21,515 nt of DNA. Source: a virus. A model generated the notes under the pieces. It had not been told where the DNA came from and searched no databases. It was given only the letters and a program-made list of their open reading frames with translations. The position numbers and the translations under genes are program-made. Shown here piece by piece: positions 6,367 through 11,187 of the stretch. The first letter of the stretch is position 1. Every line of letters begins with the position of its first letter. Location: the IMG/VR virus record IMGVR_UViG_3300028416_000096, positions 1 to 21,515 of that record. The stretch is one strand, 5' to 3'.

Positions 6367-7341
6367 ATGGCTGGTATGATTTCCTCCAACGCAGACATGC
6401 AGCGTCTGATTCGTTCTGAGGTCTACTCCTCGGAACTCAAAGAAATCCTTCGGGACGAAATGCAAGCCCAGCGCTACGTGCGTATGCTTGATGGCTTCCC
6501 CGATGGTGACACCTTCACTATCCCAACGATTGGTGAGACCACTGTCTCTGACTACACAGAGGATGCAACAGTATCCTACGTCCCTATGGACACTGCTGAG
6601 TTTCAGTTCACCATCGACAAGTACCTCCAGTCGGGTACATACCTGACGAAGAAGGCTGCACAGGACTCGTTCTACAGTGCGCAGCTTGAGGCTCGTTTTG
6701 TTCCTGAGCAGTCCCGTGCTATTATGGAACACTTCGAGGCAACAACCTTTGCTTCCCCCGAAGTTGGTGTCACAGCTAACTCCGCAGAAGCTCAGGACGG
6801 TATTGCTCACCGCATCTCGGGTGGTAATGCTGGTCGTGTTGAATTGGAAGACTTCGCCTTTGCACGTTATGCACTGAAGAAGGCTCACGTTCCTGACACG
6901 AACATGGTTGCTATTGTTGACCCATCCATTGAGTTCCAATTGAACACACTGACCAACTTGGTTAACGTGTCCAACAACCCAATGTGGGAGGGTGTTGTCC
7001 GTGACGGTATCGCCACTGGTATGCGCTTTGTTGCCAACGTCTACGGCTTCGACGTGTACACCTCCAACTACCTCAAGACCACTGTAGCTGATGCTGCTCT
7101 GCTTGAGCGTGATGGTTCCACCGCACAGGACTTCTCGACCAACAATGGTGTTGCTAACTTGTTCTTCTCGGCTGATGCAGGTGCTAACCCATTCGTGGGT
7201 GCATGGCGTCAGATGCCTGAGGTTGACTACGAGTACAACAAAGACAAGCAACGTCACGAGTATGTTACGACTGCTCGTTACGGTGTTAAGAAGTACCGTC
7301 CAGAAGGCATCGTCACAATCGTGTCGAACCCTGCCGTATAA
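6367..7341 (+). CDS. Major capsid protein (HK97-fold type)
   Basis: This 324-residue protein is the principal shell subunit. Its length, its position right after the scaffold and the terminator directly behind it match T7-like gene 10. Readable features are an N-terminal helix region (LIRSEVYSSELKEILRDEMQ), an E-loop-like beta section (FPDGDTFTIPTIGETTVSDY, ~44-63), and helical and beta elements of the P and A domains, including MVAIVDPSIEFQ and YGFDVYTSNYL. It closes with YGVKKYRPEGIVTIVSNPAV. AAAGGA at 6353-6358 gives a good ribosome binding site for ATG 6367. All 14 isoleucine codons are ATT or ATC and none is ATA, as expected of the most highly expressed gene. No frameshift extension is possible before the terminator. 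Confidence 0.93.
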   Translation: MAGMISSNADMQRLIRSEVYSSELKEILRDEMQAQRYVRMLDGFPDGDTFTIPTIGETTVSDYTEDATVSYVPMDTAEFQFTIDKYLQSGTYLTKKAAQDSFYSAQLEARFVPEQSRAIMEHFEATTFASPEVGVTANSAEAQDGIAHRISGGNAGRVELEDFAFARYALKKAHVPDTNMVAIVDPSIEFQLNTLTNLVNVSNNPMWEGVVRDGIATGMRFVANVYGFDVYTSNYLKTTVADAALLERDGSTAQDFSTNNGVANLFFSADAGANPFVGAWRQMPEVDYEYNKDKQRHEYVTTARYGVKKYRPEGIVTIVSNPAV

Positions 7342-7352
7342 GCTAAAGGGTT

Positions 7353-7380
7353 GGGGGCTTCGGCCCCCTTCCTCTATTTT
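7353..7380 (+). terminator. Intrinsic terminator with UUCG tetraloop after capsid gene
   Basis: GGGGGC (7353-7358) pairs with GCCCCC (7363-7368) around TTCG, giving a six-pair all-G/C stem closed by the very stable C(UUCG)G loop. A pyrimidine-rich tract, TTCCTCTATTTT, follows. It lies 12 bases beyond the capsid stop, comparable to the terminator after T7 gene 10. The T tract is interrupted, so partial readthrough into the tail genes is plausible. Confidence 0.9.
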
Positions 7381-7384
7381 GTTG

Positions 7385-7412
7385 TTGACAGATTTGAGAT
7401 TAGCTGTATAAT
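7385..7412 (+). promoter_or_regulatory. Consensus sigma-70 promoter between capsid and tail genes
   Basis: TTGACA (7385-7390), a 16-bp spacer and TATAAT (7407-7412) give exact matches to both hexamers. It sits in non-coding DNA right behind the capsid terminator and upstream of the gene at 7472. The predicted start is near 7419. It should be read by unmodified host RNA polymerase and drive the decoration and tail-tube genes. Confidence 0.9.
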
Positions 7413-7418
7413 TTCATT

Positions 7419-7450
7419 ATCGGTCCCCGATGGTATATCTATAGTATACC
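7419..7450 (+). promoter_or_regulatory. Two adjacent hairpins in the 5' leader (stabiliser or operator)
   Basis: ATCGG (7419-7423) and CCGAT (7427-7431) form an inverted repeat around TCC. GGTATA (7432-7437) and TATACC (7445-7450) form a second around TCTATAG. The first begins at the predicted +1 and the two abut without a gap, leaving the ribosome binding site AAGGAAG (7460-7466) unpaired downstream. A structured 5' end can protect mRNA from decay. Alternatively, the palindromic DNA may bind a repressor or activator. Both readings are inference. Confidence 0.55.
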
Positions 7451-7471
7451 TACTCACTCAAGGAAGTTACT

Positions 7472-8038
7472 ATGGCAAACGTAAACCATTCTACTCTAAC
7501 TGACCCATACCTACATGAACCTAAGGGTGTAGCAGCAGCCTCTAATGGCTCTGTTTACTTTGCAGATGGTGTAGGTAGTGGTGGTTGGGAACACCTTGCT
7601 CACTACGTAGGTGGTTATGTAGCCTTTGATGCAACTAGCCCTACTACCCAAGTTCTTACGACAATCCTTGCACCATTGAATCCTCCCTTCTCTCTAGCTG
7701 AGAACAGTGGTTTTACAGCTTTATCTACTCCTAATGCTCGTCTTCGTTACGATGAGCCTGAAGCAATGATATGTAACATTAACTTTGCAGCTTCTATACG
7801 ACACACAGCTTCACCAGATCACAACATTGAACTTGCCTTGTACAAGAATGGTGTAGCTATCGCAGGTGCTCATGTCATCCAGACTTCAAGTAACGCTGTT
7901 TGGCAGAACATGAACTTGACTGGTCAGGTAGAACTAAATGCTACAGACTACATTGAAATTTACACGAAGGCTGATGCAAGTATAACTCTTGAGTTGGCTT
8001 CGGCTTACCTCACAATCAAGGGTGTGTACAAATCATGA
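7472..8038 (+). CDS. Probable head decoration/fibre protein with C1q/TNF-like jelly roll
   Basis: The product has 188 residues and is the first gene behind the strong promoter, with AAGGAAG at 7460-7466. The N-terminus (LTDPYLHEPKGVAAASNGSV, ending with YFADGVGSGGW) is a module familiar from phage virion proteins and probably acts as an attachment segment. The remainder is beta-rich. INFAASIR, NIELALYKNGVAIAGAHVIQ, the polar-aromatic VWQNMNLTGQVELNATDYIE and the final LELASAYLTIKG read as successive strands of a C1q/TNF-type trimeric jelly roll. Such proteins decorate capsids or form short head fibres. Position between capsid and tail adaptor supports a head location, but a tail role is possible. 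It overlaps the next gene by ATGA. Confidence 0.65.
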   Translation: MANVNHSTLTDPYLHEPKGVAAASNGSVYFADGVGSGGWEHLAHYVGGYVAFDATSPTTQVLTTILAPLNPPFSLAENSGFTALSTPNARLRYDEPEAMICNINFAASIRHTASPDHNIELALYKNGVAIAGAHVIQTSSNAVWQNMNLTGQVELNATDYIEIYTKADASITLELASAYLTIKGVYKS

Positions 8039-8760
8039 AGACTACACTCCTACAGATCGTACAGTCCATCCTAAATGACATGGACTCCGAGGAAGTTAAC
8101 AGTATCAATGACACGGTAGAGGCTCAGCAGATTGCTTCTGTAGTCGAGGATACCTACTACAACATTATTGCTGCCCGTGAGATTCCTGAACATAATAAGC
8201 TCATAACCCTGACAGCAATGGGTAACTCAGCCAAACCTACTCACTTCAAGTACCCCACCAACACTAAGAAGATTGAACGTGTTGAGTACAACGTAGGTAC
8301 TGTAAGTGACAAAGATTTCCGTATCATTGAGTTTGTAGGCCCTAGCTTATTTCTAGACCGCATGGATGAGAGTGGGTTGCTTGTTGAGACTTACGACGGT
8401 AGCTTAGATATCTTTGTAGGTACAGACAGCCCGCCCACGTATTATACATCCTTTGATGATGAGTACTTGATTATGAACAGCTATGACTCTGCTGTTGATT
8501 CAACACTACAGTCCTCTAAGGTTCGGGCCCTTGGCTCCTCGTACCCTACCTTTAGCCAGACGGACAGCTTTACTCCTGACCTAGACAACACTCTTATGCC
8601 CTACTTTCTTGCTGAGTCTAAGTCTACCTGTTTCTCTCTGTTCAAGGGAGGGCCAGACCCCAAGGTAGAACAGGCTGCTCGTCGCCTTAAGTCCTTCACA
8701 CAGAATGACATGTACAAGACTAAGAGAGCTAACAAGAAACCTAACTACGGACGTACCTAA
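8035..8760 (+). CDS. Tail tube adaptor (tail tubular protein A-like)
   Basis: This 241-residue protein occupies the position of T7 gene 11, two genes after capsid. In that family a ring of gp11-like subunits joins the portal to the tail nozzle. The first ~50 residues are helical (LLQIVQSILNDMDSEEVNSI, then VEAQQIASVVEDTYYNII), followed by the KPTHFKYP turn (67-74), where such adaptors move into a beta-sandwich. The C-terminal part has YFLAESKSTCFSLFKGGPDP and a basic tail of Lys/Arg/Asn. These features match the family by length, secondary-structure pattern and context. It overlaps the previous gene by ATGA and the next by TAATG. Confidence 0.82.
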   Translation: MKTTLLQIVQSILNDMDSEEVNSINDTVEAQQIASVVEDTYYNIIAAREIPEHNKLITLTAMGNSAKPTHFKYPTNTKKIERVEYNVGTVSDKDFRIIEFVGPSLFLDRMDESGLLVETYDGSLDIFVGTDSPPTYYTSFDDEYLIMNSYDSAVDSTLQSSKVRALGSSYPTFSQTDSFTPDLDNTLMPYFLAESKSTCFSLFKGGPDPKVEQAARRLKSFTQNDMYKTKRANKKPNYGRT

Positions 8761-9068
8761 TGGTAGAGTTTATTCATGACACCGAGAACCAACGGTGCGT
8801 GTGTAAGACCGACAAACTAACCACCGACATTCACATTGAGAAAGAGCTAGGTGGTTACAGGTTCTTTGTTGTCAGGTTTGAGAAGGGGCCAGTCCCTAAA
8901 GAACTTAGTGACAGGTACTCAAGTATCTACAAGGCTCAGGCTGGTGTAGAGAAGTACCTCAGAAACAAACCTCAGTCTGTCTCGGCTCGACGTAAGGAGT
9001 TTGGAGACAACTACGAGAAACGTAAGAAAGCTCGAAATGCCTCAAAGTCTCAACCAAAAGTCAGTTAA
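8760..9068 (+). CDS. Small basic protein of unknown function in tail module
   Basis: The protein has 102 residues, and its ATG shares a base with the adaptor stop. The N-terminal half is beta-rich with two cysteines (RCVCKT) and a compact YRFFVVRFEKGPVPKELSDR segment. The C-terminal third is strongly basic (SARRKEFGDNYEKRKKARNA). I do not recognise a family. The 3' end overlaps the start of the nozzle gene by 32 bases in another frame, so the two are translationally linked. A role in tail completion or nucleic-acid contact is possible but unsupported beyond position and charge. Confidence 0.72.
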   Translation: MVEFIHDTENQRCVCKTDKLTTDIHIEKELGGYRFFVVRFEKGPVPKELSDRYSSIYKAQAGVEKYLRNKPQSVSARRKEFGDNYEKRKKARNASKSQPKVS

Positions 9069-11187
9069 CAACTTTATCCGTGGTTTGATTACTGAGGCAG
9101 GGGAGATGACTTTTCCTGAGGGTGCCTCCGTAGACGAACTTAACTGTGACCTACGTCGTGATGGTTCTCGTCGTCGTCGGTTGGGTGTAGAAGTTGAGAG
9201 CAACAACACACTCTCCTCGTTTACAATTGCAGACACTGAGATTGTTACTACGGGTGACTGGATCAACGTAGCAGGTAATGCCGACCTAGAGTTTCTTGTA
9301 GTTCAGAAGGGTTCTACCCTTTACTTCTACAACAAGGCTGACCTACCCTACTCCTCTCAGATTATTGCTGACACAGTAGACTTGTCTGCTTTTGAGCACT
9401 CAGGTTCTAGTGGCGCTGAGACAGTTAAGTGCCAGTTCACTTCGATCAAGGGTACACTCGTTGTATCCTCCCCAGCTATTGAAGCTGTTTCTATTGAGTA
9501 CGACGCTGACACTCAGACATTCTCTGAGACACAGATTGACTTTCGTGTACGTGACTTTGAGTGGCAGGGTGACACTACAACGTACTACAATGATGATGGC
9601 ACACCATCACCTGACCGTCAGTACGATGCTAAGAACGCAGGCTGGAGTGTAGGTAACGGTACACCCTCTGACTTGACCAAACGCCTGACCCACCCATGGT
9701 ACTCAGGTAAGGACGTTAACGACAACTACTCCGAGGCTGCGTTTGATAAAGTCTATAGTGGTACAACCCTTACAGGTAATGGCCACTTCATCCTAGACTT
9801 CTTCTCTAAGAACCGTGGGTCTGTCTCTGGCTTATCAGGTCTTACCAAGAGTACAGACACAGAGGTTAACCGCTTCCGTTGTGTAGAAGCCTTCTCTGGT
9901 CGTGTGTTCTATGCTGGCCTTGAGAGTTCAGCCAACGCAGGTACTATCCTGTTTTCTGGTCTCATTGAGACTACAACAGACCTAGGTCGATGCCACCAGA
10001 TCAATGACCCTACCGCTGAATACCTGAGTGATTTACTCGACACTGATGGTGGTGTTATTAAGATTCCTGATGCGGTAAAGATTCAACGCCTCTACGCCTT
10101 CCAGTCCTCCCTCTTTGTATTTGCTGATAACGGGGTGTGGCAGATCACTGGTGTTGATGGTGTGTTCACAGCAGCCTCCTACTCAGTCAACCGTGTGTCT
10201 CGTGTAGGCCTGCTACAGCCTGATACTTTTGTGTCTGCGGGTGGTGTTCCCTTTTGGTGGTCCCGCTTCGGTATCCATACCCTAGGTACAGACCCTGTAT
10301 CCGGTCAGGGTCAGGAGCAGAACCTTTCTATCTCCACCATCCAGACCTTCTGGGATGTGATTGATCAAGACGCAAAGCTCAAGGTTACAGCAGCCTACGA
10401 TAGCATCAACAAACGTATTTACTGGGCCTACCCAGACGATAATGAGACTGTTGCATCTAAGTTGAACAACTTCCTAATCCTAGACATTCCACTACAAGCC
10501 TTTTACCCTTGGCGTATAGAGGACCAGACAGGCACAACTAGCTGTGTTGTAGGTTTTGACTTTTACTCAGGATATGGTGCTAAGGCTCTTGAGCTAGACG
10601 TTACAGCCAACAACGGTGTAGACGACGTAGTTCTGTCTAATGGTGATGATGTAGTCTCTGAGCAGGTAGCTACGTTCAACACGGGTGACCCAGCTATTGT
10701 GCTTCTGATCCGTGATGGTGCTACAAACAAACTCACAATGGGTTCCTTCTCTAGTATATCCTTCCTAGACTGGGGTGAGGTTAACTATGTGTCATACGCT
10801 GAGACAGGTTACGACTTCATAGGTGATGCAGTACTAAAGAAGTCTGCACCCTACCTCGTATCCTACTGCCGACTGACTGAGACTGGCTTTACGGGTAACG
10901 AGAGCATCGGTTATGAGGCTGTACGCCCCTCAGGGCTAACTGTTGCAAGTGCTTGGGACTTTAAAGATACCTTCTCTACTGCACAACAACTCTACCGAAA
11001 GAAGTTCCCTGTCGTAGTTGACCCGAATAACTTAAACGAGTATAATTACCCTGAGGATGTTATCACTTCACGTGTTAAGGTACGTGGTACTGGACGTTCC
11101 ATGCGTCTACGTTATGAGAGTGAACAAGGTAAGGATTTCCAGCTAATCGGCTGGGGTATGGTCCAAGGCCGCAACCCAAGGTTCTAG
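9037..11187 (+). CDS. Tail nozzle protein (tail tubular protein B-like)
   Basis: I choose ATG 9037 (716 residues) over the in-frame TTG at 9001. The protein then begins MPQSLNQKSVNNFIRGLITE and ASVDELNCDLRRDGSRRRRL, a natural opening for this family, whereas the extra 12 residues fall inside the coding end of the preceding gene. The body is beta-rich, with propeller-like repeats such as LYAFQSSLFVFADNGVWQIT and VPFWWSRFGIHTLG (~380-425). It ends in a basic RVKVRGTGRSMRLRYESEQG segment and ...QGRNPRF. Size and position equal T7 gene 12, the hexameric nozzle below the gp11 ring. A near-consensus promoter (11018-11046) lies in its 3' end. Confidence 0.83.
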   Translation: MPQSLNQKSVNNFIRGLITEAGEMTFPEGASVDELNCDLRRDGSRRRRLGVEVESNNTLSSFTIADTEIVTTGDWINVAGNADLEFLVVQKGSTLYFYNKADLPYSSQIIADTVDLSAFEHSGSSGAETVKCQFTSIKGTLVVSSPAIEAVSIEYDADTQTFSETQIDFRVRDFEWQGDTTTYYNDDGTPSPDRQYDAKNAGWSVGNGTPSDLTKRLTHPWYSGKDVNDNYSEAAFDKVYSGTTLTGNGHFILDFFSKNRGSVSGLSGLTKSTDTEVNRFRCVEAFSGRVFYAGLESSANAGTILFSGLIETTTDLGRCHQINDPTAEYLSDLLDTDGGVIKIPDAVKIQRLYAFQSSLFVFADNGVWQITGVDGVFTAASYSVNRVSRVGLLQPDTFVSAGGVPFWWSRFGIHTLGTDPVSGQGQEQNLSISTIQTFWDVIDQDAKLKVTAAYDSINKRIYWAYPDDNETVASKLNNFLILDIPLQAFYPWRIEDQTGTTSCVVGFDFYSGYGAKALELDVTANNGVDDVVLSNGDDVVSEQVATFNTGDPAIVLLIRDGATNKLTMGSFSSISFLDWGEVNYVSYAETGYDFIGDAVLKKSAPYLVSYCRLTETGFTGNESIGYEAVRPSGLTVASAWDFKDTFSTAQQLYRKKFPVVVDPNNLNEYNYPEDVITSRVKVRGTGRSMRLRYESEQGKDFQLIGWGMVQGRNPRF
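11018..11046 (+). promoter_or_regulatory. Candidate sigma-70 promoter inside the 3' end of the nozzle gene
   Basis: TTGACC (11018-11023), a 17-bp spacer and TATAAT (11041-11046) match 11 of 12 consensus positions at optimal spacing. The expected start is near 11053, about 135 bases before the acetyltransferase gene. It would drive the internal virion protein operon, comparable in location to the T7 phi13 promoter. Being within coding sequence, chance similarity remains possible. Confidence 0.6.

Follow-up and report, generated by a model that had tools for sequence, protein, structure and literature searches.

The window analyzed here (record G000, 21,515 bases in full) is, by its gene matches, a late-arm fragment of a marine phage of the Cobavirinae (Zobellviridae), with ICBM2, CRP-4, CRP-5, and SIO1 as relatives. 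Few roseophage groups are as abundant in marine viromes as the cobaviruses, which have no RNA polymerase of their own. The major capsid protein gene lies at positions 6367–7341, on the plus strand like all features of the window described below, and was assigned by a match to phrog_267 (major head protein, E 5e-37); its product shares 87–91% amino acid identity with the capsid proteins of ICBM2, CRP-4, and CRP-5. This gene is the upstream neighbor of a cassette in the 130-nt gap at its 3′ side, where a UUCG hairpin, a promoter, a further hairpin (hairpin 1), and a palindromic element (element 2) follow one another in that order. On re-reading the sequence, we found every feature exactly where the original prediction had placed it. 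In the published cobavirus description, SIO1 lacks an RNA polymerase gene, and the sole signal annotated is a bidirectional terminator between the two genome arms (PMC6775973). CRP-4 and CRP-5, which both infect RCA strains, likewise have no RNA polymerase gene (PMC6918029). The word “promoter” does not occur in the cobavirus description (PMC6775973) or in the RCA-phage papers, including PMC6918029, and no cobavirus promoter map was present in the cobavirus and RCA-phage papers that we checked.

Downstream of the cassette, a Shine-Dalgarno sequence, AAGGAAG (7460–7466), unpaired in the minimum free energy fold, precedes the gene at 7472–8038, which would be the first gene of a restarted transcript. 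Its product matched phrog_38624, a family of unknown function, and a sequence search against solved structures returned nothing convincing; only fold comparison was informative. An AlphaFold2 model built from 29 sequences (pLDDT 87) gave a predicted C1q/TNF-like jelly-roll, with ExsFA, the phi812 spike knob domain, and BclA as the best PDB matches in Foldseek (E 3e-7 to 1e-6). The N-terminus carries a conserved anchor, MANVNHSTLTDPYLHEPKG. Together, the jelly-roll fold and the conserved N-terminus suggest a trimeric virion surface protein, a head fiber or decoration, with both the trimeric state and the location on the head being presumptive. The next gene (8035–8760) encodes an adaptor or tail protein resembling tubular protein A, as judged by phrog_7592 (tail protein, E 2e-72) and by the position of tubular protein A in ICBM2. 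The cassette had been proposed to separate capsid dosage from the tail genes; the terminator/promoter boundary is indeed conserved, but the first gene beyond it encodes the predicted jelly-roll protein, and the adaptor and tail genes come after it. We also note that a small gene (8760–9068) overlaps the tubular-protein-B-like gene (9001–11187) when the listed TTG start is used; the latter may in truth start further downstream.

The first element of the cassette is an intrinsic-terminator-like hairpin, GGGGGC-UUCG-GCCCCC, at 7353–7368. Its 6-bp stem (GGGGGC/GCCCCC) has a fold energy of −14.1 kcal/mol (z −2.2), and its G+C-rich stem and short loop are those expected of an intrinsic terminator. 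It is followed by a T-rich tract, TTCCTCTATTTTGTTG (7369–7384), comprising the terminator tail and the spacer up to the −35 hexamer. The tail itself, UUCCUCUAUUUU, has 8 T among its first 12 bases and is interrupted by C; many relatives have better tracts. Strong termination is therefore not assured in the window.

From relatives of the capsid gene in IMG/VR and phage records, we obtained 78 distinct downstream regions; in 67 of them, a G+C-rich hairpin comes immediately after the capsid gene. The UUCG loop is present in 50 of these 67 hairpins, and the stems vary on both sides: GGGGGC/GCCCCC, GGGTATCCC/GGGGTACCC, AGGGTGATCC/GGGTCACCCT, and more. Relatives outside the 67 have another gene behind the capsid gene. 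At the 10 inspected loci with such an extra gene, the hairpin is found ahead of the jelly-roll gene, and at two extra-gene loci, L088 and L092, a promoter matching 12/12 and 11/12 consensus positions, respectively, also precedes the jelly-roll gene. The predicted C(UUCG)G terminator is thus borne out for its hairpin, by position and by conservation in relatives, and less clearly for the poor U-tract behind the stem. Outside the Cobavirinae, VpV262, PA11, ICP2, and Vibrio 1.015 have a terminator-like hairpin before the next virion gene, often with a good T-tract, and no sigma-70 promoter was found between the hairpin and that gene in any of the four. Since the hairpin is kept there without a promoter, it appears to be a family-wide stop signal, to which, judged by these sequences, cobaviruses have added the promoter and leader. 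A comparable stop signal is known from phage T7, where the intrinsic terminator T-phi lies directly behind capsid gene 10 and before the connector and tail genes, tuning the expression of capsid versus downstream genes; T7 transcribes with its own RNA polymerase. We know of no promoter directly behind T-phi. The cobavirus hairpin shares with T-phi its place directly after the capsid module and before the connector and tail genes, whereas in the cassette a host sigma-70 promoter starts 16 nt after the hairpin, and SIO1, CRP-4, and CRP-5 lack an RNA polymerase gene according to the literature, the window itself being only a late-arm fragment.

The promoter, TTGACA-N16-TATAAT, spans 7385–7412, with the −35 hexamer at 7385–7390, a 16-nt spacer, and the −10 hexamer at 7407–7412. 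It is the only site in the window to match the sigma-70 consensus at 12/12 positions; by base composition, the expected number of exact TTGACA-N16..18-TATAAT sites is 0.01 for the window as a whole, counting both strands, and 3e-5 for the gap. The exact promoter noted originally is confirmed, both in its 12/12 match with a spacer of 16 and by the 49 relatives with 11–12/12 matches. Promoter scores across the 67 relatives form a bimodal distribution: 12/12 in 44, 11/12 in 5, and 7–8 in 18, with no score of 9–10. The −35 hexamer begins 3–27 nt 3′ of the hairpin among relatives (median 12; 16 nt in the window). A T-tract follows the hairpin in 45/49 relatives with the promoter vs 0/18 without it, and on the capsid-gene tree, the four promoter changes are concordant with changes in the T-tract. 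As a single deletion could remove both T-tract and promoter, this co-loss is concordance and not independent evidence of coupling. The cassette is also dispensable, as relatives without promoter and T-tract include L002/L138, whose capsid protein is the closest to that of the window (95% identity); L001 is almost identical to the window record.

CRP-4 is among the 18 relatives that keep the hairpin while lacking T-tract and promoter, and in these the downstream genes are presumably reached by read-through. These relatives, and the poor U-tract of the window, would fit a hairpin that acts mainly as an mRNA 3′-end stabilizer or attenuator with heavy read-through, the promoter then serving as a booster and not a replacement. 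We regard this as possible but doubtful, given the better T-tracts in most promoter-bearing relatives and in the outgroup Zobellviridae.

The all-or-none pattern may extend beyond this locus. No 12/12 promoter occurs anywhere in CRP-4 (L160), G003, G006, or G007, all of which lack the capsid-behind promoter, whereas each of the 9/9 genomes or fragments with that promoter has 1 to 6, counts that include several incomplete IMG/VR records. Perfect sigma-70 promoters may thus be a genome-wide trait of some lineages. As a separate observation, the CRP-4 genome, in which there is no 11–12/12 sigma-70 promoter, carries three ~23-bp palindromic-type repeats, ATAGGTAA..TTACCTAT, at its intergenic right end (40260–40442), possibly operators of another regulatory scheme.

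We consider it probable that the cassette is a terminate-and-restart device for the host sigma-70 polymerase, fitted with a 5′-protective hairpin. Host RNA polymerase leaving the capsid gene would meet the terminator-like hairpin, where some or most polymerases would stop, closing the capsid mRNA with a stable 3′ hairpin. The consensus promoter 16 nt further on would start a new transcript for the jelly-roll protein and the adaptor and tail genes, and polymerase freed at the hairpin may be reused there. In vitro, RNA polymerase released at a terminator reinitiates nearby in 37% of termination events, or 55% with added sigma-70 (PMC6978380), and the tight terminator-promoter spacing may therefore favor reuse. 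Those templates likewise had a terminator followed by a downstream sigma-70 promoter, but they were synthetic E. coli constructs assayed in vitro, while the arrangement described here is known from sequence alone. The original prediction had termed the locus a switch, a label that we dropped because the sequences give no sign of a regulated state. The parts of the cassette are ordinary and known; the cassette as a unit appears new, judged by the papers and records that we checked. Cultured phages with it (CRP-5, ICBM2) and without it (CRP-4) form a natural comparison that bears on how phages dependent on host polymerase set the ratio of capsid to fiber and tail proteins.

Hairpin 1, AUCGG-UCC-CCGAU (DNA ATCGG-TCC-CCGAT), occupies 7419–7431, and its first paired base, A7419, the seventh base past the −10, where transcription usually starts, is the predicted +1. 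Conditional on that transcription start, the hairpin begins within the 0–4 nt of the 5′ end typical of 5′-stabilizing stem-loops. With element 2 (7432–7450), it forms an abutting-hairpin geometry that occurs once in the 21.5-kb window, where only 27 hairpins with a 5-bp stem and 3-nt loop were found in all. Fold energies are close to those of shuffled sequences (z = −0.5 for the 53-nt leader and −1.5 for the 32-nt double hairpin); the leader is thus thermodynamically unremarkable, and the case rests on comparison. A permissive Rfam search gave only SprD, whose 22.9 bits fall far below the cut-off of 100 and which we judged to be chance.

Because MAFFT put hairpin 1 out of register from one leader type to another, we used a script to count pairing, with 79 promoters as controls, mostly from unrelated phages and drawn from among the matches listed in a broad early-promoter pattern scan. 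Pairing from positions 6–8 past the −10 was found in 20/27 cobavirus leader types (2.2 ± 1.4 in shuffles) vs 10/79 controls, a roughly sixfold excess (Fisher p = 6e-9, a descriptive value, as we assembled the 27 types manually and they include related ones). The stems show compensatory changes: AUCGG/CCGAU, GUCU/AGAC, GUCC/GGAC, AUCCC/GGGAU, and ACCCU/AGGGU. The compensation proposed for both hairpins therefore holds for hairpin 1 in most lineages and at different promoters, but several relatives with the promoter have only a weak hairpin or none, namely L207, those with short C-type leaders, and Siovirus. We rejected the idea that CTTTAACA, which follows the −10 in C-type leaders, is a boxA-like element, since it falls mostly 5′ of the predicted +1 and would hence be missing from the transcript.

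The C-type and Siovirus relatives, which keep a perfect promoter without hairpin 1 and have leaders of only ~20–30 nt, and the fold z-scores near zero leave some room for a cassette whose terminator and promoter work as proposed while the leader is inert, the +1 hairpin being incidental and only the promoter and ribosome site selected. Pairing in element 2 points the same way, as stems of its quality, in 11/27 leader types vs 17/79 controls (p = 0.075), are barely above controls. The excess of hairpins at the predicted +1 and the keeping of pairing in stems that differ in sequence between promoters make an inert leader unlikely. Hairpin 1, by these comparisons, behaves as an RNA structure, and under the terminate-and-restart model, it most likely shields the 5′ end of the new transcript from RppH/RNase E-type attack. 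Pairing of the 5′ end should slow RppH-dependent decay, and an added 5′ hairpin stabilized bla mRNA, though a sequestered 5′ end fails to stabilize some mRNAs (PMC3997798). The 5′ stem-loops of ompA and papA (cited in PMC3997798) similarly lie at or within a few nucleotides of the 5′ end and are expected to hinder RppH and RNase E. Hairpin 1 differs in that pairing starts with the predicted +1 itself, leaving no 5′ base unpaired, and in that hairpins of this type recur within a single phage group at its early, antisense, and late promoters; its stabilizing effect is a prediction.

Element 2, GGTATATCTATAGTATACC, is a 7-bp AU-rich hairpin or palindrome (GGTATA..TATACC) at 7432–7450, corresponding to +14 to +32. 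It carries the words GTATA and TATAC and a −10-like hexamer, TATAGT, at 7440–7445 (+22 to +27), which matches TATAAT at 5/6 positions. GTATA is present in 17/24 cobavirus leaders vs 3/79 controls (p = 3e-11) and TATAC in 16/24 vs 3/79. As a covarying RNA hairpin at the capsid-behind promoters, element 2 was ruled out, with no base pair changed on both sides. The two abutting hairpins predicted originally are thus where they were placed, the first starting from the predicted +1, but they are not equivalent: hairpin 1 is compensated and element 2 is conserved in its words, which is why hairpin 1 is the one read as RNA structure.

The palindrome had also been suggested to be a protein-binding operator. 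A DNA operator, bound by a protein of phage or host origin that would block or time the promoter, would account for the enriched words and for a stem without two-sided compensation; ICBM2 has a gene for a helix-turn-helix DNA-binding protein, and a single regulator could explain the likeness across early, antisense, and capsid-behind promoters. Further copies of the palindrome, which the original prediction had proposed to look for, were absent from the window at up to 4 mismatches, the three promoters of ICBM2 each have different palindromes, and element 2 is wholly missing from short-leader relatives, so that we hold an operator to be improbable. Element 2 may be an A/U-rich hairpin, an operator, or a sigma-dependent pause.

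Perfect promoters elsewhere in cobavirus genomes bear the same kind of leader, with GTATA/TATAC elements related but not identical to element 2, and such a matching leader on other strong promoters of the phage group is undescribed in the papers and records checked. One of these promoters, presumed to be early, is divergent from the late operon (CRP-5 38928+, G001 364−, G004 37123+, L215 2826+); the CRP-5 site matches at 11/12, and its +1 stem has one mismatch. A 12/12 promoter lies antisense to the early operon, between two early genes, in many cobaviruses (ICBM2 [L157] 2672−, G008/L198 13333+, G004/L190 498−, L215 5340−, L227 6283+) and could yield an antisense or regulatory RNA. Its leader is a compensated double hairpin whose stems share one geometry, with pairing kept as the sequence differs: CTTGTC/CCT/GACAAG, CTGCGT/CCT/GCGCAG, and CTTGCC/TCT/GGCAAG. 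This stem starts at the fifth base past the −10, and part of it may thus precede +1.

The recurrence of the leader from +1 at several strong promoters, early and antisense ones included, in a phage group that depends on host RNA polymerase would also fit a promoter-proximal RNA or pause element of the HK022 put or lambdoid sigma-dependent pause type, which would modify or pause polymerase and thereby let long transcripts resist later termination. A −10-like hexamer is enriched at +10 to +31 (13/24 cobavirus leaders vs 9/79 controls, p = 4e-5), and HK022 putL has one at +23 to +28 (PMC9378689). Of RNAs that act on polymerase, HK022 put offers the closest model, as like the cobavirus leader it has two stem-loops just 3′ of a strong phage promoter (putL) and a −10-like element (PMC9378689). 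It nevertheless differs in both size and structure: put is ~70 nt, with long stems and a triplex, and the cobavirus leader is 32 nt, with 5- and 7-bp stems. The leader has no Rfam match at gathering scores, and as its transcript starts 3′ of the operon’s main terminator, a use for antitermination here is not evident. We therefore think such an element quite unlikely. It would similarly be a long shot for the +1 hairpin and GTATA/TATAC to form one portable cis-element 3′ of strong host-sigma-70 promoters of cobaviruses (early, antisense, and capsid-behind), a compact element of the put or sigma-pause kind with polymerase or the 5′ end as its target; if so, the polymerase-less cobaviruses would gain a common handle on transcription elongation or timing. 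What the terminate-and-restart reading offers is a testable promoter map of all-or-none perfect sigma-70 promoters, a capsid/fiber restart cassette, and a +1 hairpin common to early, antisense, and virion-gene promoters.

In Siovirus, capsid-behind and late-operon promoters were located in ICBM1 (L158; 29377− and 39888−) and SIO1 (L159; 37512− and 8612−). The first 22 bases past the −10 (AGTCTTAACAAGTCTCCCCTGC) are identical at the capsid-behind and late-operon promoters, and this leader differs from that of Veravirus. One match in the control set, L292 (IMGVR 3300003635_000007), proved to belong to a relative of the group and to carry this module as well: a perfect promoter and double hairpin at 1852–1880, antisense, between a tubular-protein-B-like gene and a GNAT gene.
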